A DNA stretch of 64,000 bases, taken from positions 1 through 64,000 of the forward strand of contig NZ_BCSP01000009.1 in NCBI RefSeq assembly GCF_001570925.1. Direction: 5' to 3'. Below are positions 22,129 through 61,297 of the stretch, one piece after another. This DNA is from [Zimmermannella] bifida NBRC 103089. Lineage in GTDB: Bacteria; Actinomycetota; Actinomycetes; Actinomycetales; Microbacteriaceae. The notes beneath the pieces were generated by a model. That model was not told where the DNA came from. It saw nothing but the letters and a program-made list of their open reading frames with translations, and did no database searches. Positions within the stretch are counted from its first letter, which is position 1. Every line of letters begins with the position of its first letter. A program made the position numbers and the translations under genes.

Positions 22129-22264
22129 CTCACCCTCCTTTTTGGGAACTCGGGTGCCGGCAATCCCGTGTGGGTTTGCGTCCTCGGGCGCCCGAGCCGT
22201 TTGTCATCTTGTCCTTAAATTGTAGCCCTCGTTACATGCGCTTTCCCTGGAATTTAGGCGCTCG

Positions 22265-23023
22265 TTACGTTCTTGATAGCTGTGATGTGGTAGGTGCCGA
22301 ATGCGCGGATGAAAACCGTTTGGCAACGCGCGCAATCACCACGGCAGCGCAGACTTCGGCACCGGCTGATCGCAACGCACGCTCGGCTTCGACGAGTGAC
22401 GCACCGGTCGTACTCACATCGTCGACCAGCACGCAGCGCATCCCCGCGAGCGGCCGCATCGCCACCATGGCGCCGGCCACATTGCGTGCTCGTTCTGCCC
22501 TGCCAAGCCCCGATTGATCGCGCACCCGCCGCCGGTACCCAAGCACCGACACCAACGGTGCATCCGGCACCGCCCGCTGCACCAACAATTCGACGTGCTG
22601 AAACCCTCGCTTCGCCACCGCCCGCCGCTGACTCGGCACGGGTACCAGCACGCAATCGCGTACTCCGGCGCGGTGCAGCGCCAGCAGACCGACGCGCAGC
22701 AGCGGTACCAGCGCGGGAACCGCATCCACTCGCCCAGCATCTTTCACCGCGGTGATACAGCGCTGCACAACCGAGTGATAGTCGGTTGCGCTCACCACGA
22801 CGAGTCCCGACGCCAGCGCTTCGCGATGCACGAATACGCGCTGCCGCAGCGCTGCGGCACAGATCGCGCACAGGCCGCGACAGATCTCGTCTCGCACACC
22901 GCACGCCGCACATCCGGTTGGGAACCACAGCTGCAGCAATTGCCGCCAAGCTGCCAGAACCCGATGCCGACCGACGTGACCGCGTGCATCCGCACCGCTA
23001 TCGTCTGCGCCGCCTGCTGTCAT
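22265..23023 (-). CDS. ComF-family phosphoribosyltransferase-like protein (252 aa)
   Basis: N-terminal zinc-finger-like cysteines (FPTGCAACGVRDEICRGLCAICAAAL) and a C-terminal type-I PRTase domain with the PRPP-binding loop CVLVDDVSTTGAS. ComF proteins are needed for DNA uptake in competent bacteria, but the family is widespread without competence and its reaction is unknown. An alternative reading frame over the same DNA (22254-22949) is Arg/Cys-rich and rejected. It lies between lpqB and hpf, on the same strand, as in mycobacteria. Confidence 0.87.
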   Translation of the reverse strand: MTAGGADDSGADARGHVGRHRVLAAWRQLLQLWFPTGCAACGVRDEICRGLCAICAAALRQRVFVHREALASGLVVVSATDYHSVVQRCITAVKDAGRVDAVPALVPLLRVGLLALHRAGVRDCVLVPVPSQRRAVAKRGFQHVELLVQRAVPDAPLVSVLGYRRRVRDQSGLGRAERARNVAGAMVAMRPLAGMRCVLVDDVSTTGASLVEAERALRSAGAEVCAAVVIARVAKRFSSAHSAPTTSQLSRT

Positions 23024-23137: not shown

Positions 23138-24835
23138 CTACACCTGCGCGTACAGGAAGGTGATCGACGTTTCGGATGCCTGCCAGCGCGAACCGCGCGG
23201 AGCATAAACCGTGCCGTGTCGATCCACGATTCGCATGCCCGAAAGCGAGTTCGCACCGGCGATCTGCGCCGCCGACGGAATCGTACCCATCGATGTGAGT
23301 TCGCCACCGACCTGGTAGACGCGCACCGAGGTGGAACCGTCCTGCTTGTTCACAAGCATGCCGACGCTGTTCGGGTCGATCCAGGCGAGGTCGCTGGCCT
23401 TGTCATTCGCACCGGGCATGGCCACGATCAGCGGCGCACCGAGCTCCACCGGGGCGCCCTTGTCACGGATGATCGGCATGACCGCAAGCTGCACGCCTTC
23501 GTCATCGTTGTAGAGCACCGCAAGGCGAGTGCCATCGCGCGAGACCTGGTGCGAAATGAATGCCGGGTCAATCTGCGGTGGCAGCGGAATCTCCCGCAGC
23601 TCACCATCGCCGATGTGCGAGACGTACAGTCCGGTCTCAACGGTGGACTGCGTCCACACCCAGTCCCAGTTGTCGAGCGCCGGCTCGATTTGGCCAGGAC
23701 GCGCGTCGATCAACACGGGCTCGTCGTCGGTAAACCGCATGGCGTGGGCACCGTTGGCGTTGAGCAGGGTAAGCGTTTGACGCGACGCCGAGAGCGCCCC
23801 ACGAATCGGCTTGAGTTCATTCACGACTTCGGACACGTGTTCGGCGCCGTTTGGCACGCTGACCGCACTGTTGTTTAGGAACCCGATGTCATTGCCAGAC
23901 TGCACCAGCGGCATTGAACTGACGTCGGCGGTCGTGACGACCGCATCGCGATTCGGCAGCGACACATCGATGCGCGCACCGTTGACGCGAATTTCTACCG
24001 ATGAAATCCCGGGAACGGTCAGCAGGCTTTCTTCGAGCTGCAACCGCACCAGGGAAAGATCGGTAGCGGATGCCGACGACAGTTCACCCGAAAAGTCCAC
24101 CACGGCAACGCCATCAGCAATGACCACGTCGTTTCGCAGCTTCACGCCCTCGGGGAACGCCGACACGACCGCGCTTCCGGGCCGCATCCACTCTGCCGGG
24201 CCATTAATGAGTTCCTGCACGACGCGCGTCGGCAACTTGGTGCCATTCGGCAGCCAGCGAAGATCCGGCGACGTGTAGCGCTTGTCATTGTCGAAGTACG
24301 TCAGCATTTGCTGGGCGTAGAGGTCGTTGAACGGCTGCTGCTGCAACACCACACCCGGAGGTGCCTTAGCGATGCGCCACTGCCCGTCGACCTGTTCGAG
24401 CGTGAACGACAGGCTCTCGTTCGAGGTCGAAAGCGTTTCGGAATACAAGCCGTGATCGTCAACCTGGCCGCGTAGCGGCACCGAAACCTCGATGCCGTTC
24501 GCACCGGCCGACTTCATCGATGCCTGACCGTTGGTAATGAGTACGCGAGCGTCCGGGTCCCAGTCTTCTTTGGCGGCTGGCGTCAAGTATTCGCGCGCGG
24601 CCTGGAACCCGTCTCGAGTACCGGTACCCGCGTCCAGGAACCCCTGCACGATTTCTTCGCGCGTCGCTCCGGCGCTCGGCCCCGATGGGAAGTACCGGAC
24701 ACCCTGGTTGGACTCGTCCGGTTGCGAACGGCCTTCTTCGATCGGGCCAGATGTCGGGATCGAGGCACATGCCGAAAGCCCCACCATCAGCGAGGCGGTA
24801 GCGAGGGTTGCGAGGATGCGGCGGATGCGAGTCAT
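23138..24835 (-). CDS. lpqB: Lipoprotein LpqB, MtrB-associated (565 aa)
   Basis: In mycobacteria LpqB contacts the extracellular part of MtrB and tunes MtrA phosphorylation. Lipoprotein signal with lipobox LSAC (cysteine at residue 23), then a GerMN domain (about 200-320, containing LINGPAEWMRPGSAVVSAFPEG) and a C-terminal beta-propeller-like half (VSHIGDGELREIPLPPQ). It overlaps mtrB by 4 bp, completing the mtrA-mtrB-lpqB operon. Confidence 0.95.
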   Translation of the reverse strand: MTRIRRILATLATASLMVGLSACASIPTSGPIEEGRSQPDESNQGVRYFPSGPSAGATREEIVQGFLDAGTGTRDGFQAAREYLTPAAKEDWDPDARVLITNGQASMKSAGANGIEVSVPLRGQVDDHGLYSETLSTSNESLSFTLEQVDGQWRIAKAPPGVVLQQQPFNDLYAQQMLTYFDNDKRYTSPDLRWLPNGTKLPTRVVQELINGPAEWMRPGSAVVSAFPEGVKLRNDVVIADGVAVVDFSGELSSASATDLSLVRLQLEESLLTVPGISSVEIRVNGARIDVSLPNRDAVVTTADVSSMPLVQSGNDIGFLNNSAVSVPNGAEHVSEVVNELKPIRGALSASRQTLTLLNANGAHAMRFTDDEPVLIDARPGQIEPALDNWDWVWTQSTVETGLYVSHIGDGELREIPLPPQIDPAFISHQVSRDGTRLAVLYNDDEGVQLAVMPIIRDKGAPVELGAPLIVAMPGANDKASDLAWIDPNSVGMLVNKQDGSTSVRVYQVGGELTSMGTIPSAAQIAGANSLSGMRIVDRHGTVYAPRGSRWQASETSITFLYAQV

Positions 24836-26742
24836 TCGTCCGTGTCCTTCGGTGCGTCGGAAGTGTCTTGCGTCGTTATCGTGTCGGATGCGTCGGCAGC
24901 CGTCTCGGCGTCGGTGTCGGCATCCACCGCCGCGAGCTGAATGATCTGCGGCTGCGTGCTCAGATTGGTGCCGCCGAGCTGATCATCGGCGTAGTCACCG
25001 ACGAACGTCTCGGAGCCTGCGTCCTCGGGCAGCAGCGGCAGTGGCGACGACACGATTGGCTCGCCCACGCGAACCGGCAGCGTCAAGCGGAAGTTCGTAC
25101 CGAGCCCGAGAGCCGACCACACTTCGAGCTTGCCGTCGTGTAGGCGAGCGTCTTCGTGCGAGATTGCAAGGCCCAGACCCGAGCCACCCATCGTGCGCTT
25201 ACGCGAGGGGTCAGCTCGCCAGAACCGTTCGAAGACGAGCTTCTGGTGGTCTTCGTTCATACCGATGCCGTAGTCACGCACGCTGAGCGCAACCGCGGTC
25301 GCGTTCGCATCCACGGTAACGACGATCGGTTGCCCCTCACCGTGTTCGATGGCGTTCGCGATGAGGTTACGTACGATGCGGCGGATGCGGCGGTCATCGA
25401 ATTCGGCGCGCACTTCGCGCTCAGGTACCCGCAGCAGCAAGGCTTCGGAGTGATCCATAGCGACGGGGAGCATGGCACCGACGACGTCTTCGGCAATGTC
25501 CTTGAGGTCGTTTGAGCGGCGCAGCAACTCGACCGCACCGGCGTCGTAGCGAGAGATTTCGAGCAGGTCGTTCAGCAGCAATTCGAAGCGCTCGACCTGG
25601 TCGTGCAGCAGCTCTGCCGAGCGCGCGAGCGTCGGATCGAACTCGTTCTTGCGGGCATACACGATGCCGCCAGCCAGGCGAATCGTGGTGAGCGGCGTGC
25701 GCAGTTCGTGCGAAACGTCGGAGACGAATCGTTGCTGCACCTTGGAGAGGTGTTCGAGCTGCTCGATCTGTTCCTGCAGGTTGTCAGCCATGTGGTTGAA
25801 CGAGCGCGAAAGCGTACCGATATCGTCCTCACCGCGCTCCGGGATGCGTTCTTCGAGGTGCCCCGCAGCGAGCTTGCGACTCGTTTGCGCGGCCAAGCGA
25901 ATCGGCTGAATGACCGCACGCATGATGGCTCCGGTAATAAGCGCTACGAGCAAGACGAGAATCGCCATCGAGATCACCAGCGTGCGCTGGATGAAGTCGA
26001 GGGTGTCTTGGGATTCCTCGAGCGAGTACACGAGGTAGAACTCGTAGTACCCGGATCCTGGTACGGACACGGTCGAACCGATGACGACGCCCGGTACGAT
26101 GCGTTCCAGATCCCCCGCGAGTGCCACTGACTGGTAGTGCACCGGCCCGGTCTGTGCGCGCACGGCTTCACGCAGTTTTTCGCTCACCAAACCGAGTGGC
26201 ACTGTCTCGGAGGCCATGTCTTGCAGGCCCACGTTGTTGTTCTGCGACGGCGGACTGTAGAACGCGAAGCCGATCGAGTTCGGGGTTTGCGATTGCGCCG
26301 CAGTGATCGCCTCTTGGCGCAGCGATGAGGCACCCTGGTCGCCGGAGTCGCCGCCCAGGTCAAGCTTGCTTTGCGCGGCGGCAACTGCTCGTTCGGCTTC
26401 TACTTGCAGGTCGTCGATGCGGGATGTGTACAGGTCGCGCGCGATGGTGTTTCCCATGACCAGCGCGACGGCGATCACGGTGGCGCTGGTGAGCAGCACG
26501 GCAATGAGGGTGGTACGGAACGGCAGCGATGTGGCCCAGAGGAACTTTAGATTCTCGAAGAGCCCGGCCGGTCGCCACCAGCTGCCGGGCAGGTCGCGAT
26601 CGGGAAATTCGTCGGTTGACCGTGAAAGTTTGATCGGGATGCGCTCGTCGGGCGCGGCGAGCACCAGCGCGGTACTCGTCGACGAACCGCCACCCGCAGC
26701 AAAATCAGCTTCGGGTGAAGCGGTGGAGGCATCCTGTGGCAT
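24832..26742 (-). CDS. mtrB: Sensor histidine kinase MtrB (636 aa)
   Basis: Membrane sensor of the MtrAB system that couples cell-wall and osmotic state to growth and division in actinobacteria. Layout: a long cytoplasmic N-terminus, TM1 (about 75-95, LIAVLLTSATVIAVALVMG), an extracytoplasmic sensor region of about 165 residues, TM2, HAMP, HisKA with DVSHELRTPLTTIRLAG, and HATPase (NAIEHG, DYGIGM, GGSGLGLAI). The C-terminal tail is Asp/Thr-rich. It follows mtrA by 23 bp and overlaps lpqB by 4 bp. Confidence 0.97.
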   Translation of the reverse strand: MPQDASTASPEADFAAGGGSSTSTALVLAAPDERIPIKLSRSTDEFPDRDLPGSWWRPAGLFENLKFLWATSLPFRTTLIAVLLTSATVIAVALVMGNTIARDLYTSRIDDLQVEAERAVAAAQSKLDLGGDSGDQGASSLRQEAITAAQSQTPNSIGFAFYSPPSQNNNVGLQDMASETVPLGLVSEKLREAVRAQTGPVHYQSVALAGDLERIVPGVVIGSTVSVPGSGYYEFYLVYSLEESQDTLDFIQRTLVISMAILVLLVALITGAIMRAVIQPIRLAAQTSRKLAAGHLEERIPERGEDDIGTLSRSFNHMADNLQEQIEQLEHLSKVQQRFVSDVSHELRTPLTTIRLAGGIVYARKNEFDPTLARSAELLHDQVERFELLLNDLLEISRYDAGAVELLRRSNDLKDIAEDVVGAMLPVAMDHSEALLLRVPEREVRAEFDDRRIRRIVRNLIANAIEHGEGQPIVVTVDANATAVALSVRDYGIGMNEDHQKLVFERFWRADPSRKRTMGGSGLGLAISHEDARLHDGKLEVWSALGLGTNFRLTLPVRVGEPIVSSPLPLLPEDAGSETFVGDYADDQLGGTNLSTQPQIIQLAAVDADTDAETAADASDTITTQDTSDAPKDTDE

Positions 26743-26765
26743 TGACGTCGCGGAGGGCCGTGTCG

Positions 26766-27443
26766 CTAGGAGTTACCGGCTCGATAGCCCACACCACGAA
26801 CGGTCTGCACGATCTTCGGCTGGTCGGGGTCGACCTCGACCTTGGCACGCAGACGCTGCACGTGGACGTTGACCAGACGGGTATCGGCCTTGAAACGGTA
26901 GCCCCACACCTGTTCGAGGAGTTCCTCGCGGGTGAACACACGGTTGGGCTTCGACGCCAGCGTGTGCAGTAGGTCGAATTCGAGCGGCGTGAGGTTGATC
27001 GGCGTACCGGCGCGAAGCACTTCGTGGGCAGCCACGTTGATGGTGATGTCCCCCACGCGGAGTTCTTCGCTGTGGTCGGCCGAGCTGCCGCGCAGTCGCG
27101 TCTTAATGCGGGCGACGAGTTCCTTCGGGTCGAACGGCTTGACGATGTAGTCGTCGGCGCCGGCTTCGAGCCCTCGAACAACGTCGGCGGTGTCGGACTT
27201 AGCGGTGAGCATGATGATTGGTACGCCCGAGGTCTCGCGGATCGCTTCGCAGATTTCGATACCGCTCATGCCGGGAAGCATAACGTCGAGCAGCACGAGG
27301 TGCGGATCAACCTCGTGGAACTTCTCGACCGCCTTAGCGCCGTCGGAGCAGAACGATGGGGTGTATCCCTCAGCACCAATCACGATGCCGATCATCTCGG
27401 CAAGTGCCGTGTCGTCATCAACCACGAAAATGCGCTCTACCAC
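26766..27443 (-). CDS. mtrA: Response regulator MtrA (225 aa)
   Basis: OmpR-family regulator paired with MtrB. Receiver domain with acidic pocket FVVDDD and phospho-acceptor in LVLLDVMLPG, conserved Lys in VKPFDPKE, then a winged-helix DNA-binding domain (LTPLEFDLLHTLASKPNRVFTREELL, VNVHVQRLRAKVE, VRGVGYRAG). The start is GTG at 27443 with GGAAGG six bases upstream; upstream extension to 28082 has no family similarity and is rejected. It is divergent from the GPDPase-domain gene. Confidence 0.97.
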   Translation of the reverse strand: MVERIFVVDDDTALAEMIGIVIGAEGYTPSFCSDGAKAVEKFHEVDPHLVLLDVMLPGMSGIEICEAIRETSGVPIIMLTAKSDTADVVRGLEAGADDYIVKPFDPKELVARIKTRLRGSSADHSEELRVGDITINVAAHEVLRAGTPINLTPLEFDLLHTLASKPNRVFTREELLEQVWGYRFKADTRLVNVHVQRLRAKVEVDPDQPKIVQTVRGVGYRAGNS

Positions 27444-27601
27444 GAATGACCTTCCCTCAGACGCGAACACGAGGCCAAGCTTGCACCTCGATAATTCCTG
27501 ATCGAGCCTACCCTGCCGCAGGTGAGTTTCCTGCGGATACCCCATCCCTCTATGGTCGCAAATCTGGCAATGATCGCACCTGCCTGTGCGACGATGAAAA
27601 C

Positions 27602-29152
27602 GTGAATAACGACGCAGGACACACCTCGGCACCCCAGCCACACGCGGGCGATGGCCAGAACAGCAACGGCACCGCCCCATCCGCCCCTCGCACCTACGGT
27701 GAGGCGATGGATGCACGCCAACAGCAAGATGGCGGTTGGTCGGCGGCAACACCGGGCGCGAATGGCGCCTCGGATGCGTCGGCGTACGGCCCGAATGCGG
27801 GCCAGCACAATCCGTACGGTCAGCCCGGTCCTTATAGCCAGCAGGCCTCCTATGGCCAGGCCTCCCACGGCCAAGCACCCTATGGCCAGGCCCCCTACGG
27901 CCAGCAAGCTCCGTATGGGCAAGCCCCCTACGAACAGGCGCCGTACGACCAAAACGGCTACCAGTACCCAGCGGGGCAATACCCGGGTGGCGCCGCATCC
28001 TGGAACACCGGAGCGCCAGCCGCACCGGGTGCCCAGGCATGGCGCCCAGCAGGCCCAGCCGGACTCTTCCCGCTGCGCCCACTGTCGTTCGGCGACGTCT
28101 TCGGCGCCACGTTCCGCCTGCTGCGCTTCAGCCCAGCGGCAAGCTTCGGCGGCGCATTCCTGCTGCAGTTCCTCGTGTCGCTGCTCGCCGGGTTGGCGCC
28201 CCTCATCACAATCTTGAGCAATATCGAGCTCCTTAACAACGCCTCATCAACGGAGTGGACCTCGGATCACACCCGGTTCCTGACGTGGTTGTTGATCTCG
28301 TTGATTCCGTCGATCCTGATCACGGTCTTCGTGAACTCTGCCGTGCAAGCGCTGATCGCTATCGTCACGGCCAAGGCAGCCATCGGCCAGAAGATCACCC
28401 TCGGCGAGGCGCTGCGCAAGGCGTGGCAGCGCGTCCTGCCGCTGACCGGTTACCTCTTGCTGGCCAGCCTAATCATGCTCCTCGTGTTCGCCATCACCAT
28501 CGGGCCCGGTGCGGCCTGGCTCACGGTTGCCATGGTCAACACCTCCACCCAATTCGCCGGCCCCGTCCTGACGCTAATTCTCGGCTTCCTCTTGTTCGCG
28601 GTGGCGGCGGTATTCGTCAACACCAAGCTCATGTTCGGGGTCTCCGCAGTCACGCTTGAGCACCTCGGCCCGGTGGCGGCTATGAAGCGCAGCTGGACGC
28701 TGATCACCGGCCTCTTCTGGCGCTCGTTCGGCACGAACCTGGTGGTCTCCATGACGGTCTCGTTCGCGACGAGTATCGCCAGCCAGTTCATCGGGTTCTT
28801 CATCACCATCTTGATGGGGCTGCTGGCACCAATCGGAGCGCCAGCCTCCGCTTCTTCGAGCGAAGTCAATGGCGGGATGATTTCAATCGGGATCGTGATG
28901 ATGGTCGTCATCTCGGCGATGGCCACGGTGATGAGCGCGGTCACGTCGGTGCTCATCGGCGGCAACTGCGTGGTCCTCTACGCGGATGCTCGCATGCGCA
29001 AGGAAGGCCTCAACATCGCCCTGCAATCGGCAACCGACGATCTCGCCGCCGGCCGCGAACCCGAACAGGACCCGTGGCGGTCAGCACCGGTCTCGCCAAC
29101 GCAACCCAACGCATCCGGCATGCCCACGCCGACCCAAACGCCAACCTGGTAG
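27602..29152 (+). CDS. Membrane protein with PYGQ repeats and GPDPase-membrane-type domain (516 aa)
   Basis: Residues about 60-130 are repeats of the type (S/P)YGQA(P) and other Gln/Pro/Gly-rich sequence. The rest is a polytopic domain of six or more helices like the membrane domain of glycerophosphodiester phosphodiesterases (RPLSFGDVFGATFRLLRFSPAASF is the family opening). No catalytic GDPD domain is present, so enzymatic activity is not implied. The GTG start at 27602 is assigned from the frame and low-complexity onset, without a strong ribosome binding site. It heads the MoxR-type block, and DUF4129 follows after a 99-bp gap. Confidence 0.75.
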   Translation: MNNDAGHTSAPQPHAGDGQNSNGTAPSAPRTYGEAMDARQQQDGGWSAATPGANGASDASAYGPNAGQHNPYGQPGPYSQQASYGQASHGQAPYGQAPYGQQAPYGQAPYEQAPYDQNGYQYPAGQYPGGAASWNTGAPAAPGAQAWRPAGPAGLFPLRPLSFGDVFGATFRLLRFSPAASFGGAFLLQFLVSLLAGLAPLITILSNIELLNNASSTEWTSDHTRFLTWLLISLIPSILITVFVNSAVQALIAIVTAKAAIGQKITLGEALRKAWQRVLPLTGYLLLASLIMLLVFAITIGPGAAWLTVAMVNTSTQFAGPVLTLILGFLLFAVAAVFVNTKLMFGVSAVTLEHLGPVAAMKRSWTLITGLFWRSFGTNLVVSMTVSFATSIASQFIGFFITILMGLLAPIGAPASASSSEVNGGMISIGIVMMVVISAMATVMSAVTSVLIGGNCVVLYADARMRKEGLNIALQSATDDLAAGREPEQDPWRSAPVSPTQPNASGMPTPTQTPTW

Positions 29153-54153: not shown

Positions 54154-56766
54154 CTAGGCGTTGCGCTGGCGACGGAGCAGCAGAGCTGCGCCGAGTGCTG
54201 CCATCGCTGCCGCAACGATTGCTGCGCCGGTGATGAACTGGTCATCAGCACCAGTTTCTGCGAGCTTGTCAGCGTCGGTACCGGCAACCGGTACTGCCGA
54301 TGCGCTCGGTGCTGGAGCGTCGGTTGCAGGGATGGTCTGGCCACCGTCTGCAGTTACCGTGAAGTCAACCGTCGCGGTCTTGTCACCCTGCGCCAGAACG
54401 ATCTGGTAGTCGCCAACCGGGAATGGCAGGTTGTCGTTGACGAGGTTGCCGTCCTGGTCGTACTCAGCCCAGGTCAGGCTTCCGCTAACGAAACCGTCAG
54501 CGTCTACCTCGACGTCGAACTCGATGCGCTCACCAGCTGGGTTCACAAGGAACGCGGTGATCGGTTCACCAGGAGTCCAGCCGCCACCGAGGTAGTTGAT
54601 GCCCTTGGTCGACTCGGTCTCGGTGTAGGTCTTCTTCTCGACCTCAACGAACGGCTCAGCTGGAGCCGGCTCCTCAGCAGGGCTGACGGTCATCGGTACG
54701 AGAACGTACGAGCCCGAGCCCGAGCTGGTCGAGGTAGCCGCACGTGCAGCAACATCCGCTGCGCCACCCTTGGGTTCACCGGTGAGCTTGAGCGTGTAGT
54801 CGCCAGCTGCCATGTCTGCAGGTACCGTGACAGTGATTTCGGTCGAGTTGTTTTCGCCGTTGGCGGTTACGCCGGTGATCTCTGCAATTCCAACGGTGGT
54901 TGCGGTGCCGTCAGCAGCAATGAGTTCTGCCTTGACCTGGCCGTCTGCGATGAAGTCCTTCGAACGAAGGTCAGTGCCCTTGACGGTGAAGGTCTTTTCG
55001 GTTCCGGCCTGAACGACTGGAGCGGCACCGTTGTCGAAGTAGCCTTCGAGTTCGAAACCGTTACGGGCGGTGTCGGCCTTGAGCTCCTGGTTTGGCAGCG
55101 ACTTGACGTATGCAACGAATGCGTCGAGGTCAACCGAACCGGTGTCGTAAACCGATTCTGCCTTCTTCAATGAGTGGAAGTTGTCACCACCGGATGCAAG
55201 GAACGTCGGCATAACGACCTTGTAGGTTGCGGCGGGGTCGAGCGGCTTGTCGTCAATGTAGATCGAGGTGATGCGCGAGCCGCGCTCCTGTGTGGCGTCG
55301 TACGTGTAGTTCACGTTGCTCGACATGCCCAGCTGCAGGTATGGACGCGAAGGAACGTTGCCGTCCTTGTCCAGCTGCCACTGCTCTTCGAAGACCTGCT
55401 TGAGGTTTTCACCCGAGATCGACACGATCGCGAGGTTGTTGGTGAAAGGCAGAACGGTCTGGGCATCCTTGTAGGTAAGAACACCGTCACCCTTGATGTC
55501 TTCACGCAGACCACCCGGGTTCATGATCGAGAGATCAGCCTTGGTTTCTTCGGTGCCAACGTTGTTTGCCCACTGGTGCATCGAGTCGGCAACTACGCCA
55601 CCGAGCGCCGATTCCTGTGCACGGTCGTCCTTAACCGGAGCGCCGTTTTGCCAGGTGTAGGCGCGGGTGATGTTGTCGTTCACAACACCGATCTGCGCTG
55701 CACCGAGAACATCAGCTTCAGCCTTGGCTGCTTCCTTGATACCTACGACTGCGTCGTAGGTAGCCTGCGATTCAGGGGTCAGGCCGTCGCGGGTGAATGC
55801 TGGCGTGCCAGCCTTCGGGTCCGAGTAGGTGTCGATGACCGACGAGTCGGCCTTGACGACCTTGCCCGATGCGTCGAGGGTCAGGACAACCTGGCCGATT
55901 GCGTCACCGTACTGCGCAGCCTGAATGACTGGTCGAGTGGTGTCGCCAACTGGCGCCTCGTAGTTGTACTTCTGGTGGGTGTGCGCGTGGTAGATCGCCG
56001 CAACCTTTGGCGAGGTACCGGTCACCATTTCGTTGAACGTGGCGTTCGCAGCGTTCTCGTCGTAGCTGCCCGAGGTCGGACCACCTTCGTGATACGAGGC
56101 GATGATGACGTCGGCTTCACCGTTGGCTTCGTTGCCGTCGGTGAGCTGGTCTGCGTACTGGTTAACGGCGTCAACCGGGTTACCGAAGGTCAGGCCTTCG
56201 ATACCTGATGGGCTAACGCCCGATGGAGTCGACGAGGTTACGGCACCGACGATGGCAACGCGCTTGCCGCCAGCTTCGACGATCTGGTAGGCGTCGAGCA
56301 AAAGCGAGCCATCAGTCTTGGTGACGTTTGCCGCCAGCAGGTGGCCAAACTCGTTCTTGATAGCCAGAGCGTCTTCCTGCCCCTTGTCGAACTCGTGGTT
56401 GCCAGCGGTGTACGACTCAACACCGAGGGCCTTGAGCGCGTCCTTCGTTGGCTGGTCGCCGGCGATCGACGACTCGAACTCCGAAGCACCAACCTGGTCA
56501 CCGCTACCGAGGATTACGGTGTTGTCGGCACCGTACGCATCCTGCGCACTCAGAACTGCAGCAGCGAATGCGTCGACCTTGGTGATGCGGCCGTGGAAGT
56601 CGTTGAAACCAACGAGGTTGATCTGGGTTTCGCCAGCGGTCGGCTGGATGATTGCACCGTCGGTGCGGGCTTCGGCGTTAGCCGGAGCGACGAATGCGGT
56701 AAGGGCGAGCGCCGAACCAATCACCGACGCGATGCCACCCTTCACCGCCTTAGAGAAATTAGCCAC
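54154..56766 (-). CDS. Wall-anchored 5'-nucleotidase/2',3'-cyclic phosphodiesterase, UshA-type (870 aa)
   Basis: Hydrolyses extracellular nucleotides to nucleoside and phosphate. Signal peptide (1-31), a calcineurin-like metallophosphatase domain (metal motifs FNDFHGRI, LGSGDQVG, AGNHEFD, HAHTH; about 47-300) and the 5'-nucleotidase C-terminal domain (NPGGLREDI, LPFTNNLAIV; about 340-560). An Ig-like region follows, then a module of about 100 residues shared with the neighbouring nuclease (about 700-810), a Pro/Ala linker and LAETGADDQF plus helix and RRQR tail. Sortase anchoring is inferred. The 11-bp repeats upstream suggest phosphate- or nutrient-linked control. Confidence 0.93.
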   Translation of the reverse strand: MANFSKAVKGGIASVIGSALALTAFVAPANAEARTDGAIIQPTAGETQINLVGFNDFHGRITKVDAFAAAVLSAQDAYGADNTVILGSGDQVGASEFESSIAGDQPTKDALKALGVESYTAGNHEFDKGQEDALAIKNEFGHLLAANVTKTDGSLLLDAYQIVEAGGKRVAIVGAVTSSTPSGVSPSGIEGLTFGNPVDAVNQYADQLTDGNEANGEADVIIASYHEGGPTSGSYDENAANATFNEMVTGTSPKVAAIYHAHTHQKYNYEAPVGDTTRPVIQAAQYGDAIGQVVLTLDASGKVVKADSSVIDTYSDPKAGTPAFTRDGLTPESQATYDAVVGIKEAAKAEADVLGAAQIGVVNDNITRAYTWQNGAPVKDDRAQESALGGVVADSMHQWANNVGTEETKADLSIMNPGGLREDIKGDGVLTYKDAQTVLPFTNNLAIVSISGENLKQVFEEQWQLDKDGNVPSRPYLQLGMSSNVNYTYDATQERGSRITSIYIDDKPLDPAATYKVVMPTFLASGGDNFHSLKKAESVYDTGSVDLDAFVAYVKSLPNQELKADTARNGFELEGYFDNGAAPVVQAGTEKTFTVKGTDLRSKDFIADGQVKAELIAADGTATTVGIAEITGVTANGENNSTEITVTVPADMAAGDYTLKLTGEPKGGAADVAARAATSTSSGSGSYVLVPMTVSPAEEPAPAEPFVEVEKKTYTETESTKGINYLGGGWTPGEPITAFLVNPAGERIEFDVEVDADGFVSGSLTWAEYDQDGNLVNDNLPFPVGDYQIVLAQGDKTATVDFTVTADGGQTIPATDAPAPSASAVPVAGTDADKLAETGADDQFITGAAIVAAAMAALGAALLLRRQRNA

Positions 56767-56815: not shown

Positions 56816-56856
56816 CAAGTAACGAACAGGTAAACCCCAGACAGTTTTCAGTTACA
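56816..56856 (-). promoter_or_regulatory. Four 11-bp-spaced direct repeats upstream of the nucleotidase gene
   Basis: On the minus strand 8-bp units TGTAACTG (56849), ACTGTCTG (56838), TTTACCTG (56827) and GTTACTTG (56816) follow each other every 11 bp; each ends CTG or TTG, with a 3-bp spacer. The array starts 50 bp before the ATG. The layout is that of OmpR-family regulators; PhoP, GlnR and MtrA are candidates. The binder is inferred. Confidence 0.6.
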
Positions 56857-57025: not shown

Positions 57026-60000
57026 CTACGCGTCGCCGTGGCGACGTCGCAGCAGCACACCAGCCCCGGCGACACACAGCACCGCAGCGAATGCGGCGAT
57101 GAGGGTTGCGTCCTCTGCACCAGTGGCGGCAAGACCATTGCCACCCTCAGGCGCCTTGTCACCAGCTGCTACCGGTGCGGTCGAGCTGCTCGAAGCCGGT
57201 GCTGGCGTTTCCGATGTCCCCTCGGTTACCACCGAGAACTTGGCTTCGGCAACTGCGCCGTCCTGGGTCAGGACGATCGTGTACTCACCGACTGGGAACG
57301 CGAGGTTGTCCTCGACCAGGTTTCCATCCTGGTCATAGGTCGCCCACGTGAGCGTGCCCGAAGCCATGCCGTTCTCGTCGATCGTGACATCGAATGCCAG
57401 TTCTTCACCGGTTGGCGAGATCACGACTGCGTGTACCGGCACACCAGGGAGGAATCCATCGGCGAGCCAGACGATGCCACCCTTCGACTCGGTCTCGGTG
57501 TAGACCGGTCGCTCGACGACGAGGTTAGGTTCAACAACCTCGATGTCGGAGTTTGCTTCCAGGTCGCCCTGAAGTGCGAACACTTCGTGCATTCCGAGCG
57601 TTGCGTCAGCCGGGACGGTAAACGTCAGGGTTGCGGTTCCCGTTTCATCGGCCATTGCCGAGCCAAGCTGCACCGGCGTCGAGCGGAACTCGAAGTAGAC
57701 CAGTTCGCCAGGTTTGAAGCCCGTTGCCGTTGCTACAACATCAGTTCCAGCAAGCACACGGTCGCGGTCAACCTTCACTGCTGGGTCGTAGGTCGGTGCC
57801 GGGTTCTCTGTCGGAGTCGGCTCCATGACGACGTTGAAGTGTGCCTGGCCGAAGTCTTCAGCCAGGTCAGCACGGTTAACGGCGTACTTGCCGCCACCGA
57901 GGTCTTCAACAGCCATTTCGGTGCTGCCATCAACAGCGGTCACGCTCTTGATCTGGTAGCCATCCTTAGCCGTTACCTGAAGCACGATCTTGTCGTCGAG
58001 GAAGTAGTGCTGTGTACCGTCCGCGGTCATTGCCGCGTAGCGGTCACCAGTACCCGAACCGAACTGCGCAACTGCAGTCTCAGCACCGTCAACGAAGCTG
58101 AGTTCGGCGAGGTCGTCGCGACCGTTGGTCTCGCCGTCAAGCGAAACCGTGGCGACCGAAGTCACGGTCGAGAAACCGGCAACGAACTCGGTGGTCGTCT
58201 TACCAGTTGCTTCAGGTGCAGCAACCTCAACGGTGGCTACCGGGTGCTTGCCAGCGCCCATGACTGCGCTGCTGGTCTTACCGGTCGACGGGCTGATGTA
58301 CGTGACCTCAGTGCGCTGAACGTCAACGATCGACATGCGCGAGTCATCCGCATCCGCGAAGTACTGGGTGCGGTCGTTTGCCGGGGTCGGCAGGTAGACC
58401 TCTGCAGTGCCAGGTGCGATGCCTGGGAACGTGAACTTGCCGTCCACCTGCGAAGTCATCCACCACTTACCAGCGGCGTCCTTGACGTAAACGTAACCGG
58501 GACCCGAAACGAGTTCGCCATCGGTCAAGGCGTTGTCGAGGTTGCGGTCGCGGAAGTACGAAACAACGAGCTCGTTCTTCGCGGCCGGTTCGGTCACGTT
58601 GAAGCCAACGATTTCTGGGTTGTGGTCCGAAGCGCGGTACTGGTCGGCACGGTGCAGCTGCGTCACGTTGTAGTTGTTGCGGCTGTACTCGAGTGCGACC
58701 GGCTCGTAGGCGTTGATCGTCCAGATCTCGCGAGCCTCAACCAAGGCAGCGGCTGCCGGTGAAGCGAAGATGTGGTCGAGCGAACCAACCATGCCGCCGA
58801 AGAGGTACGACTCGCCGTCGGCTTCTTCGAGCAGGTCAACGTAGCCAGCATCGGTGATCGTGGTGATCGGGGTTTCCTTGGCGTAGGCGTTGAAGTCACC
58901 TGCGAGGAAGGCAAGGTCGGTGCCCTGCTTGGTCTGCTGCGCCTGCGAGAACTTCAGCAGTGCCTCAGCCTGACGGGTACGGTCGCCGTTCCAACCACCG
59001 GTGTTGTTCGACTGGTCGGCGTCGTTGTCTGGCGAAGCGTTGTCGCCGCTGCCCGAGCCACCCTTCGACTTGAAGTGGTTAGCGATGACCACGAACTTGG
59101 TGTCCGGGTTCTTGACTGCCGAGAACGTTGCGGCCAGTGGCGCGCGAGCGTTCGAGAACGCAGCGTCGTTGAGGATCTCGGTCGAACCGTCAACGTAGGT
59201 GACTGCATCCTTCTGGTAGATGAATGCCGTGCGGATGACGTCGTCGCCAGTTGCCGGAACCGTGCTTGGCGAAGGTACGAACGACCACTTCTCGCCGCCG
59301 GCCTGTGCGTTCAGCGCCTTAACGAGCTGCGACAGTGCATAGTCGCGGTTCTTGCCGAAGTCCGACGAGTCCTCGATCTCTTCGAGGGCCACAACCGAAG
59401 CGTCGAGCTGGTTGATCGCCGAAACGATCTTTTCCTGCTGCTGGTTGAAGCTGTCCTGGTCGTAGGCACCGCGAGCCTTGCAGTAGTTGTTCGTGGTGGG
59501 GTTGCCTTCACGGTCGGCGTAGTACTTGCAGCCGGACTCTTCCTTGCCGAGCGAGGTGAAGTAGTTGAGCACGTTGAAGGAAGCAACCGTCACGTCGGTG
59601 CCGAGCTGCGGAGCTGGCTTGCGCACGTCCGAGAACGAAACCGGCATGTCCGTGGTGCCCTGCTGCGGCTGAGTCGGCTGCAGACGCCACTTGTTGAAGT
59701 TGTACTCGAGCACAACACCCTCGCTGAAGGTTGCTTCAGCACCGATGGTTACCGGGTGGTCGAGGTCGAGGTATGGCAGCGGTACACCCGAGTTCTTGCT
59801 GAAGTCGGTGGTGGCACCGTCGTCGAGCAGAATTGCGCGAGCTTCGTTGTCGGCAACCTGTGCCTGTGCTTCGGCCGAACCTGGCGTACCAACGTCGGTT
59901 GGCTGGTGCAGTGGCTTGTCACCGAATGCCAGGCCAACTTCGCCGTAGCGGTCGAGGCCCTGACCCGACTTGCCGAGCACACCGTAGTTGTCGGTCACAA

Positions 60001-61081
60001 CCAGGCCGGTCGGCTTGACGAGCATGCCTTCGTAGTTTTCGCGAGCGCCGAGGTCGGCCCAGACGGCCTGGTTGAGCTCGGTCGGGGTGACGGTACCGAG
60101 CGAAGTCGGGAGTACGTCAACAGCCGTTGCGGTGATCTGCGTCGACTCGTAGTACTCGGCAACCGCACCGGTTACCGAAACCGAGTCGCCTACCTTGACG
60201 TTGTTAACGAACGAGAGGTCCTTGTTGTAGACGAAGACACCAGTCGAGCCAGTGTGGCCTGCTGGCGCAGTGCCGTCGGCCATCTGAATGAAGAAGCCGT
60301 TCTTGCCGCCGGTGGCGTATACCGCGGTCACGACACCCTCGGTGGTCACGGTCTGCGATGCCAGTGGGCTCGCGTTACCGGTGCCCTGAATGTCGGCGAT
60401 GGTGATCGGCGCAGCCGGGTCGGTCGGATCCGTTGGGCCAGTTGGACCCGTCGGGTCAGTCGGGCCAGTCGGGTCGGTTGGTTCCGGAGCGGCGCCCTGC
60501 CCCTGCGGGGTCGGTGCGCCGGCGACGAAGTCAACCGAGTTGTTGTCGGTGTCGACACCCGCAGTTACGCGAGCGACCGAGGTCGTGGCCGAAGTCCCCG
60601 GTGCGGCAGCAGTTTCGTTGTTAACCGCAGTTCCCCAACCAACGCGGTCGATCAGCGCACCGGATGCGTCAGTCAGGTCGACCTGGCCGGCCGAGCCACC
60701 CATCGCGATGCCGGTGGTCGTGTCAGCAACGAACGACGCGGCGTCCTTGTTAGTGCCGTAGGCGGCACCAATCAGGTAGTGCTGGCCAGGTTCAAGCGTG
60801 CCGCTCAACGTGTGAGTACCGCCGAGCCCACCCTTTGCGCTGTAGTACGACACGGTCATACCGTCGAGCGAAATCGGAGCCGAGGTCGGGTTGTAGAGCT
60901 CAATGAAGTCTTGGTTGTACGGGGCACCAGAATTGCCACCGCCACCGTAAACCTCGTTGATCACGAGGTTGCTGCCATCGACCGCTGCGACGGCTTGCGG
61001 TGCATTAACGGCCATCAAGCCGCCGGCACCGAGCGACACAGCCAGCGCAGAGGCTGCGAGACGCTGAATAAGAGAGTTCAC
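57026..61081 (-). CDS. Wall-anchored extracellular nuclease, ExeM/NucH-type (1351 aa)
   Basis: Degrades extracellular DNA. Signal peptide (1-33), a lamin-tail domain (LVINEVYGGGGNSG, about 36-180), a TDPTGP-repeat linker (185-220), an OB-fold-type DNA-binding region (ITIADIQGTG, 225-340) and the endonuclease/exonuclease/phosphatase domain (ASFNVLNYF, ALEEIEDSSDFG, LAGDFNAY, ASDHNPEIV; about 485-830). Then SdrD-B-like and Ig-like regions, the module shared with the nucleotidase (about 1185-1290) and LAATGAED with a helix and RRRHGDA tail. Anchoring by sortase is inferred; no sortase gene is in this window. Confidence 0.93.
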   Translation of the reverse strand: MNSLIQRLAASALAVSLGAGGLMAVNAPQAVAAVDGSNLVINEVYGGGGNSGAPYNQDFIELYNPTSAPISLDGMTVSYYSAKGGLGGTHTLSGTLEPGQHYLIGAAYGTNKDAASFVADTTTGIAMGGSAGQVDLTDASGALIDRVGWGTAVNNETAAAPGTSATTSVARVTAGVDTDNNSVDFVAGAPTPQGQGAAPEPTDPTGPTDPTGPTGPTDPTDPAAPITIADIQGTGNASPLASQTVTTEGVVTAVYATGGKNGFFIQMADGTAPAGHTGSTGVFVYNKDLSFVNNVKVGDSVSVTGAVAEYYESTQITATAVDVLPTSLGTVTPTELNQAVWADLGARENYEGMLVKPTGLVVTDNYGVLGKSGQGLDRYGEVGLAFGDKPLHQPTDVGTPGSAEAQAQVADNEARAILLDDGATTDFSKNSGVPLPYLDLDHPVTIGAEATFSEGVVLEYNFNKWRLQPTQPQQGTTDMPVSFSDVRKPAPQLGTDVTVASFNVLNYFTSLGKEESGCKYYADREGNPTTNNYCKARGAYDQDSFNQQQEKIVSAINQLDASVVALEEIEDSSDFGKNRDYALSQLVKALNAQAGGEKWSFVPSPSTVPATGDDVIRTAFIYQKDAVTYVDGSTEILNDAAFSNARAPLAATFSAVKNPDTKFVVIANHFKSKGGSGSGDNASPDNDADQSNNTGGWNGDRTRQAEALLKFSQAQQTKQGTDLAFLAGDFNAYAKETPITTITDAGYVDLLEEADGESYLFGGMVGSLDHIFASPAAAALVEAREIWTINAYEPVALEYSRNNYNVTQLHRADQYRASDHNPEIVGFNVTEPAAKNELVVSYFRDRNLDNALTDGELVSGPGYVYVKDAAGKWWMTSQVDGKFTFPGIAPGTAEVYLPTPANDRTQYFADADDSRMSIVDVQRTEVTYISPSTGKTSSAVMGAGKHPVATVEVAAPEATGKTTTEFVAGFSTVTSVATVSLDGETNGRDDLAELSFVDGAETAVAQFGSGTGDRYAAMTADGTQHYFLDDKIVLQVTAKDGYQIKSVTAVDGSTEMAVEDLGGGKYAVNRADLAEDFGQAHFNVVMEPTPTENPAPTYDPAVKVDRDRVLAGTDVVATATGFKPGELVYFEFRSTPVQLGSAMADETGTATLTFTVPADATLGMHEVFALQGDLEANSDIEVVEPNLVVERPVYTETESKGGIVWLADGFLPGVPVHAVVISPTGEELAFDVTIDENGMASGTLTWATYDQDGNLVEDNLAFPVGEYTIVLTQDGAVAEAKFSVVTEGTSETPAPASSSSTAPVAAGDKAPEGGNGLAATGAEDATLIAAFAAVLCVAGAGVLLRRRHGDA
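60417..60483 (-). repeat. Imperfect 9-18-bp tandem repeats coding TDPTGP
   Basis: Repeated units of GGNCCNACNGACCC type code the Thr-Asp-Pro-Thr-Gly-Pro linker of the nuclease. Length may vary by slippage. Confidence 0.7.
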
Positions 61082-61136: not shown

Positions 61137-61166
61137 CAGCTAACGCTGAGGCAACGATCAGGTAAC
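61137..61166 (-). promoter_or_regulatory. Three 11-bp-spaced direct repeats upstream of the nuclease gene
   Basis: On the minus strand GTTACCTG (61159-61166), GTTGCCTC (61148-61155) and GTTAGCTG (61137-61144) occur exactly every 11 bp, the first lying farthest from the gene. The array starts 56 bp before the ATG, close to the 50-bp distance at the nucleotidase gene, and uses the same core. Control by a common OmpR-type regulator is inferred. Confidence 0.6.
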
Positions 61167-61297
61167 GCACCGATTAACCAAATCGTTTACCAACCGTTCA
61201 ACGAGGTGCGGGGCAAAATCCGGCTTACCTCGCCAACGACATGCATGCATCCGCATGCCACCCGCACCAAAAAACGGACAGAAGCGACCCAGAACCG

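Follow-up and report, generated by a model that had tools for sequence, protein, structure and literature searches.

An array of 11-bp direct repeats upstream of a secreted nuclease gene is probably a PHO box, through which an OmpR/PhoB-type regulator, most likely RegX3, would activate both this gene and the adjacent 5'-nucleotidase gene under phosphate scarcity. That a protein binds and activates here, that phosphate is the signal and that RegX3 is the protein are our inferences from the repeats, their conservation, the fit of a pstS/phoU motif, the occurrence of RegX3 in the genome and the fused form of the two enzymes in other genera. The array would most likely represent a putative instance of an already known kind of operator, with deviant units.

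According to the proposed mechanism, phosphate scarcity would yield a phosphorylated response regulator of the OmpR/PhoB type, most likely the RegX3 of a SenX3-RegX3 pair, which would occupy the 11-nt direct repeats in head-to-tail order, separately upstream of the nuclease and the nucleotidase, and activate both genes. The secreted nuclease would cut outside DNA and RNA to nucleotides, from which the 5'-nucleotidase would free phosphate. The genes and promoter elements concerned are numbered here on the window, by which we mean the whole stretch of 64,000 nucleotides (64 kb) that was analysed.

57026..61081, minus strand: secreted nuclease of the ExeM/NucH family (NCBIfam NF033681, 548 bits, cut-off 300)
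54154..56766, minus strand: secreted 5'-nucleotidase (PF02872 and PF00149, both above their cut-offs)
61137..61166, minus strand: three-unit 11-bp direct-repeat array, GTTACCTG-atc-GTTGCCTC-agc-GTTAGCTG (continuous, GTTACCTGATCGTTGCCTCAGCGTTAGCTG)
61139..61178, minus strand: PHO-box frame of the nuclease array in four 7+4 units, GTTAATC ggtg CGTTACC tgat CGTTGCC tcag CGTTAGC
61185..61202, plus strand: opposed pair GTTTACC aacc GTTCAAC (GTTTACCaaccGTTCAAC), just upstream of the nuclease array
56816..56834, minus strand: partner array at the nucleotidase promoter, TTTACCTG-ttc-GTTACTTG (continuous, TTTACCTGTTCGTTACTTG), with weaker units upstream to 56856

The two enzymes and their promoter arrays

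The nuclease has Pfam matches to lamin-tail, OB-fold and Exo_endo_phos domains (the OB-fold just below its cut-off) and ends in a sortase-like C-terminal tail. Its named relative, from Gulosibacter chungangensis, is 52% identical across the nuclease, and the host genus lies near Gulosibacter. The nuclease (57038-57538) and the nucleotidase (54163-54660) also have a C-terminal module in common, with 50% identity on the minus strand. Among sampled genomes of the family, 78 of 120 contain a match to the nucleotidase. At 20 of the 27 homologous loci outside the genus, we find a single long frame that extends at least 500 codons upstream of the nucleotidase. Three of these long frames, checked with Pfam, each encode a single protein with domains of both enzymes, one of the nuclease matches being just below cut-off. 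In a short-motif search, the end of an acetyltransferase gene was found upstream in all 11 genus loci and in 10 of the 20 fused loci, which argues for a common locus.

The three units at the nuclease promoter stand at exact 11-bp steps on the minus strand, just as originally predicted. The gap of 56 bp to the start codon that was given with them is off by one, the count being 55 bases from the array to the nuclease GTG at 61081. A fourth unit in register, GTTAATC at 61172-61178, was absent from that earlier description; together with the adjoining CGTTACC, it forms the best site of our PHO model (described below) at this promoter, with p=0.019. The opposed pair beyond it agrees with two copies of GTTCACC in 12 of 14 letters and is partly kept in the relative G010. 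A matching array had also been claimed for the nucleotidase gene, and it is indeed present, 49 bp from the GTG of that gene, with a PHO-model p of 0.006. Elsewhere in the window, four weak GTTACCTG-like units follow one another at 11-bp steps at 22231-22282 on the plus strand (23 of 32 letters), in the gap that separates two frames (22128 and 22254).

The pattern GTTN2CN5GTTN2CN5GTT has its sole exact match in the window at the nuclease array; with up to one mismatch it has four, against a shuffle mean of 0.75, a number reached by 1 of 100 shuffles. In the genome as a whole (2.13 Mb), TTACCTN4GTTACCT is found, allowing one mismatch at most, in two places only, 56817-56833 at the nucleotidase promoter and 61149-61165 at that of the nuclease, while the reversed-pattern control gives none. 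The same search across 11 genomes of the genus returned 15 matches against 8 for the control, 11 of the 15 lying at nuclease or nucleotidase promoters; the four others, two each in G001 and G009, had no gene in common as judged by eye. Looser versions were not enriched, with 6 matches against 8 for the control for GTTACCN5GTTACC with one mismatch in the whole genome, and 17 against 18 for TTACCTN4GTTACCT with two. The exact canonical form, three copies of GTTN2CCN4, is present neither in the window nor in the genome. Since the loose patterns are not enriched, the repeat alone is modest evidence, and we regard conservation as stronger evidence than repeat counts; it is conservation that makes the case for the array.

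In an alignment of G000 with G010, the array is identical in 23 of 30 columns and the remaining aligned stretch in 64 of 132, a contrast that is not absolute, as the best other 30-column stretches reach 21/30. The spacing of the array is constant across the genus, and TTACC-like pairs counted over 21 promoters are most frequent at a lag of 11, with 19 pairs against 4 for the runner-up. In a leave-one-out test, the array model beat the best of 200 shuffles at 8/10 nuclease promoters (failing in G005 and G008) and 9/11 nucleotidase promoters (failing in G004 and G008). Here and below, nuclease sets of 10 exclude G009, where the locus is incomplete, and sets of 11 include it. The lack of enrichment of the loose patterns would suit a repeat that arose by chance, or a promoter element that does not act as an operator. 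Conservation above the flanks, the same spacing across the genus and the same motif at the fused homologues argue against such an origin, which we consider highly improbable.

Fit to PHO-type sites

All 11 pstS promoters in the genus carry a two-unit PHO box close to GTTHACC-N4-GTTCACC (GTTAACTtcccGTTCACT in G000), and a model trained on them reaches p<0.05 in 8/11 phoU promoters. Our PHO model combines the genus pstS sites with the best-scoring site from each of the 11 phoU promoters and excludes the nuclease and nucleotidase sites. Promoters were scanned on the gene-ward strand only, and significance is stated against first-order shuffles, uncorrected for relatedness. The 20 fused genes represent the highest-ranked long frames, with L150, L152, L175 and the lower-ranked rows left out. 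At p<0.05, the model recognizes 11/11 nucleotidase promoters, 6/11 nuclease promoters (G009 included) and, with some upstream regions misplaced by the use of the first in-frame start, 15/20 promoters of fused genes in other genera. Twelve column-permuted models attain 0–2 of 11 nucleotidase, 0–1 of 10 nuclease and 0–3 of 20 fused promoters, and the intact model is significant at none of the 11 nlpC promoters.

In five of the six positive nuclease promoters the site falls within the array region, the exception being G007; the model is not significant in 5/11 nuclease promoters, and the best site is not the array in G006 and G007. With pstS sites alone for training, the model reached significance at 3/10 nuclease and 7/11 nucleotidase promoters (5/10 and 8/11 when repeated with other shuffles), as well as at 11/20 fused ones.

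These boxes depart from the canonical form. The literature consensus GTTCACC attains p<0.05 at 0/10 nuclease, 3/11 nucleotidase and 8/20 fused promoters. Exact GTTNACCN4GTTNACC occurs at 18 sites in the genus against 2 in the control, five of them pstS sites, eight loci ahead of a small SRPBCC-like gene and none at a nuclease or nucleotidase promoter. Near-canonical nucleotidase boxes in basal or outlying species (GTTTACCtcgcGTTCATG in G004 and TGTAACCttccGTTCACC in G003) link the CGTTACC form with the GTTCACC form, and the proximal unit form [CG]GT[CT]ACC also appears at phoU in G001, G005, G006, G007 and G009.

The most canonical PHO-like pair in the genome, the conserved and operator-like GTTNACC-N4-GTTNACC, precedes this SRPBCC-like gene in 8/11 genus genomes (L196, L199, L202, L203, L205, L208, L210 and L211), yet does not stand beside a phosphate gene. 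In several of these loci, TATACTT-like or TATAATT-like letters follow directly, and some are divergent from a ClpC-like gene (names assigned by eye).

Candidate regulators

The OmpR-type DNA-binding domain is matched seven times in the genome, by MtrA, the RegX3-like L002 and the PhoP-like L003 among others; for each of these three kinds of regulator, repeats of about 11 bp are reported or known as binding sites. The solved structure nearest to L002 is that of RegX3 (2oqr, 1.7e-98), although no NCBIfam model scores it above cut-off. Its gene lies on contig C3, where phoU is at a distance of about 2 kb and pstS at 14 kb. The phosphate system of Mycobacterium smegmatis is SenX3-RegX3 (PMC4415409). 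The case for RegX3 draws on the biology of the enzymes and on the [CG]GT[CT]ACC units at phoU, as well as on the outlying species and the fused homologues. Two components of a competing system are encoded in the same window as the array.

26766..28082, minus strand: MtrA response regulator, the C-terminal half of the frame (NF040689, 370 bits, cut-off 300)
24832..26742, minus strand: MtrB sensor kinase (NF040691, 614 bits, cut-off 450)

Both belong to an mtrA-mtrB-lpqB-like cluster at 23138-28082 on the minus strand, in which the LpqB match is far below the curated cut-off. Repeats of the GTGACATTTCCGTGATC type upstream of NlpC/P60 genes (L112-L122) are kept in 11/11 genomes and are likely MtrA sites.

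The array might instead be an MtrA operator, its GTnAC-type 11-bp repeats placing the two surface enzymes under control of the cell envelope instead of phosphate. Apart from the presence of MtrA and MtrB in the window, this reading can call on the nuclease units, which may be read as GTTACC-N5-GTTGCC, and on the Streptomyces coelicolor MtrA motif [GT]T[GA]ACC-N5-GT[GT]AC, taken from PMC5650626, which attains p<0.05 in 8/11 nucleotidase and 2/10 nuclease promoters. That consensus, however, is found at 0/20 fused homologues of other genera, and a model trained on the genus nlpC sites (the presumed MtrA target) fits 1/11 nucleotidase, 2/10 nuclease and 1/20 fused promoters. Nor does MtrA account for the GTTCACC forms seen in G003, G004 and G008, and we judge control by MtrA in place of RegX3 to be unlikely. 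Within this clade, the deviation from GTTCACC, the MtrA matches at the nucleotidase promoters and the fact that 0/18 canonical sites fall here leave room for MtrA or for a joint reading. In the latter, drift would have given the nuclease and nucleotidase operators of this genus a box of their own, TTTACC/CGTTACC in register, readable by both RegX3 and MtrA. Scavenging of outside DNA would then depend jointly on phosphate and on the state of the envelope, and each of the two genes would have its own copy of an operator that in other genera serves a single fused gene; we consider such dual control unlikely.

Binding by the PhoP-like regulator L003, kin of Corynebacterium glutamicum PhoR, is a further candidate. 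L003 is nearest to Mycobacterium tuberculosis PhoP (3r0j, 3.4e-76), and C. glutamicum PhoR binds the promoters of nucH and ushA, described in PMC3353115 as phosphate-starvation genes. Against this, the PhoR consensus CCTGTGAA-N3-CCTGTGAA, sought on the gene-ward strand only, matches 0/11 nucleotidase, 1/10 nuclease and 0/20 fused promoters, and the promoter of L003 itself has no PHO-type site (best score 3.3), making L003 a very unlikely binder. We rejected this consensus as the identity of the array together with the C. glutamicum MtrA consensus (0/11 nucleotidase, 0/10 nuclease, 0/20 fused), neither of which fits at the promoters scanned.

The original prediction proposed one regulator for both enzymes. 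The part of it that concerns a shared operator appears well supported at the sequence level, the array being kept upstream of both genes in the genus, the enzymes being joined in most of the other-genus loci and the pstS/phoU-type model fitting both promoters. The identity of the regulator stays at the level of candidates, with RegX3 the best and MtrA its main rival.

Implications and known systems

Reading the arrays as PHO boxes predicts that phosphate scarcity is the signal for two large enzymes at the cell surface in a little-studied genus near Gulosibacter; our literature search for Gulosibacter and phosphate starvation found nothing. It would also explain why the nuclease and nucleotidase genes lie side by side, and the fused homologues in other genera support a single pathway from nucleic acid to phosphate. 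The deviant box, kept distinct from that of pstS within one genome, offers a small test case of how two regulators of the OmpR type, both with 11-bp-spaced sites, stay apart.

The MtrA sites of S. coelicolor and C. glutamicum (PMC5650626, PMC3353115) resemble the array in their 11-bp-spaced GTnAC-type repeats. They differ in that the known targets are cell-wall and developmental genes, and the MtrA motif is absent from the fused homologues of other genera. The PhoRS system of C. glutamicum governs the same two types of enzyme through 11-bp direct repeats, the induction by phosphate starvation being that reported for C. glutamicum in PMC3353115. Its motif CCTGTGAA, however, was not found here, and the nuclease and nucleotidase genes are adjacent in our window. 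The PHO boxes bound by PhoP in S. coelicolor and by RegX3 in mycobacteria differ from this putative one in their units, which are mainly CGTTACC, CGTTGCC and CGTTAGC here in place of the GTTCACC of S. coelicolor. The architecture is alike: PMC4415409 describes tandem 11-nt units of seven conserved and four free nucleotides, variable between promoters, with several units per operator and phosphate-scavenging genes downstream.
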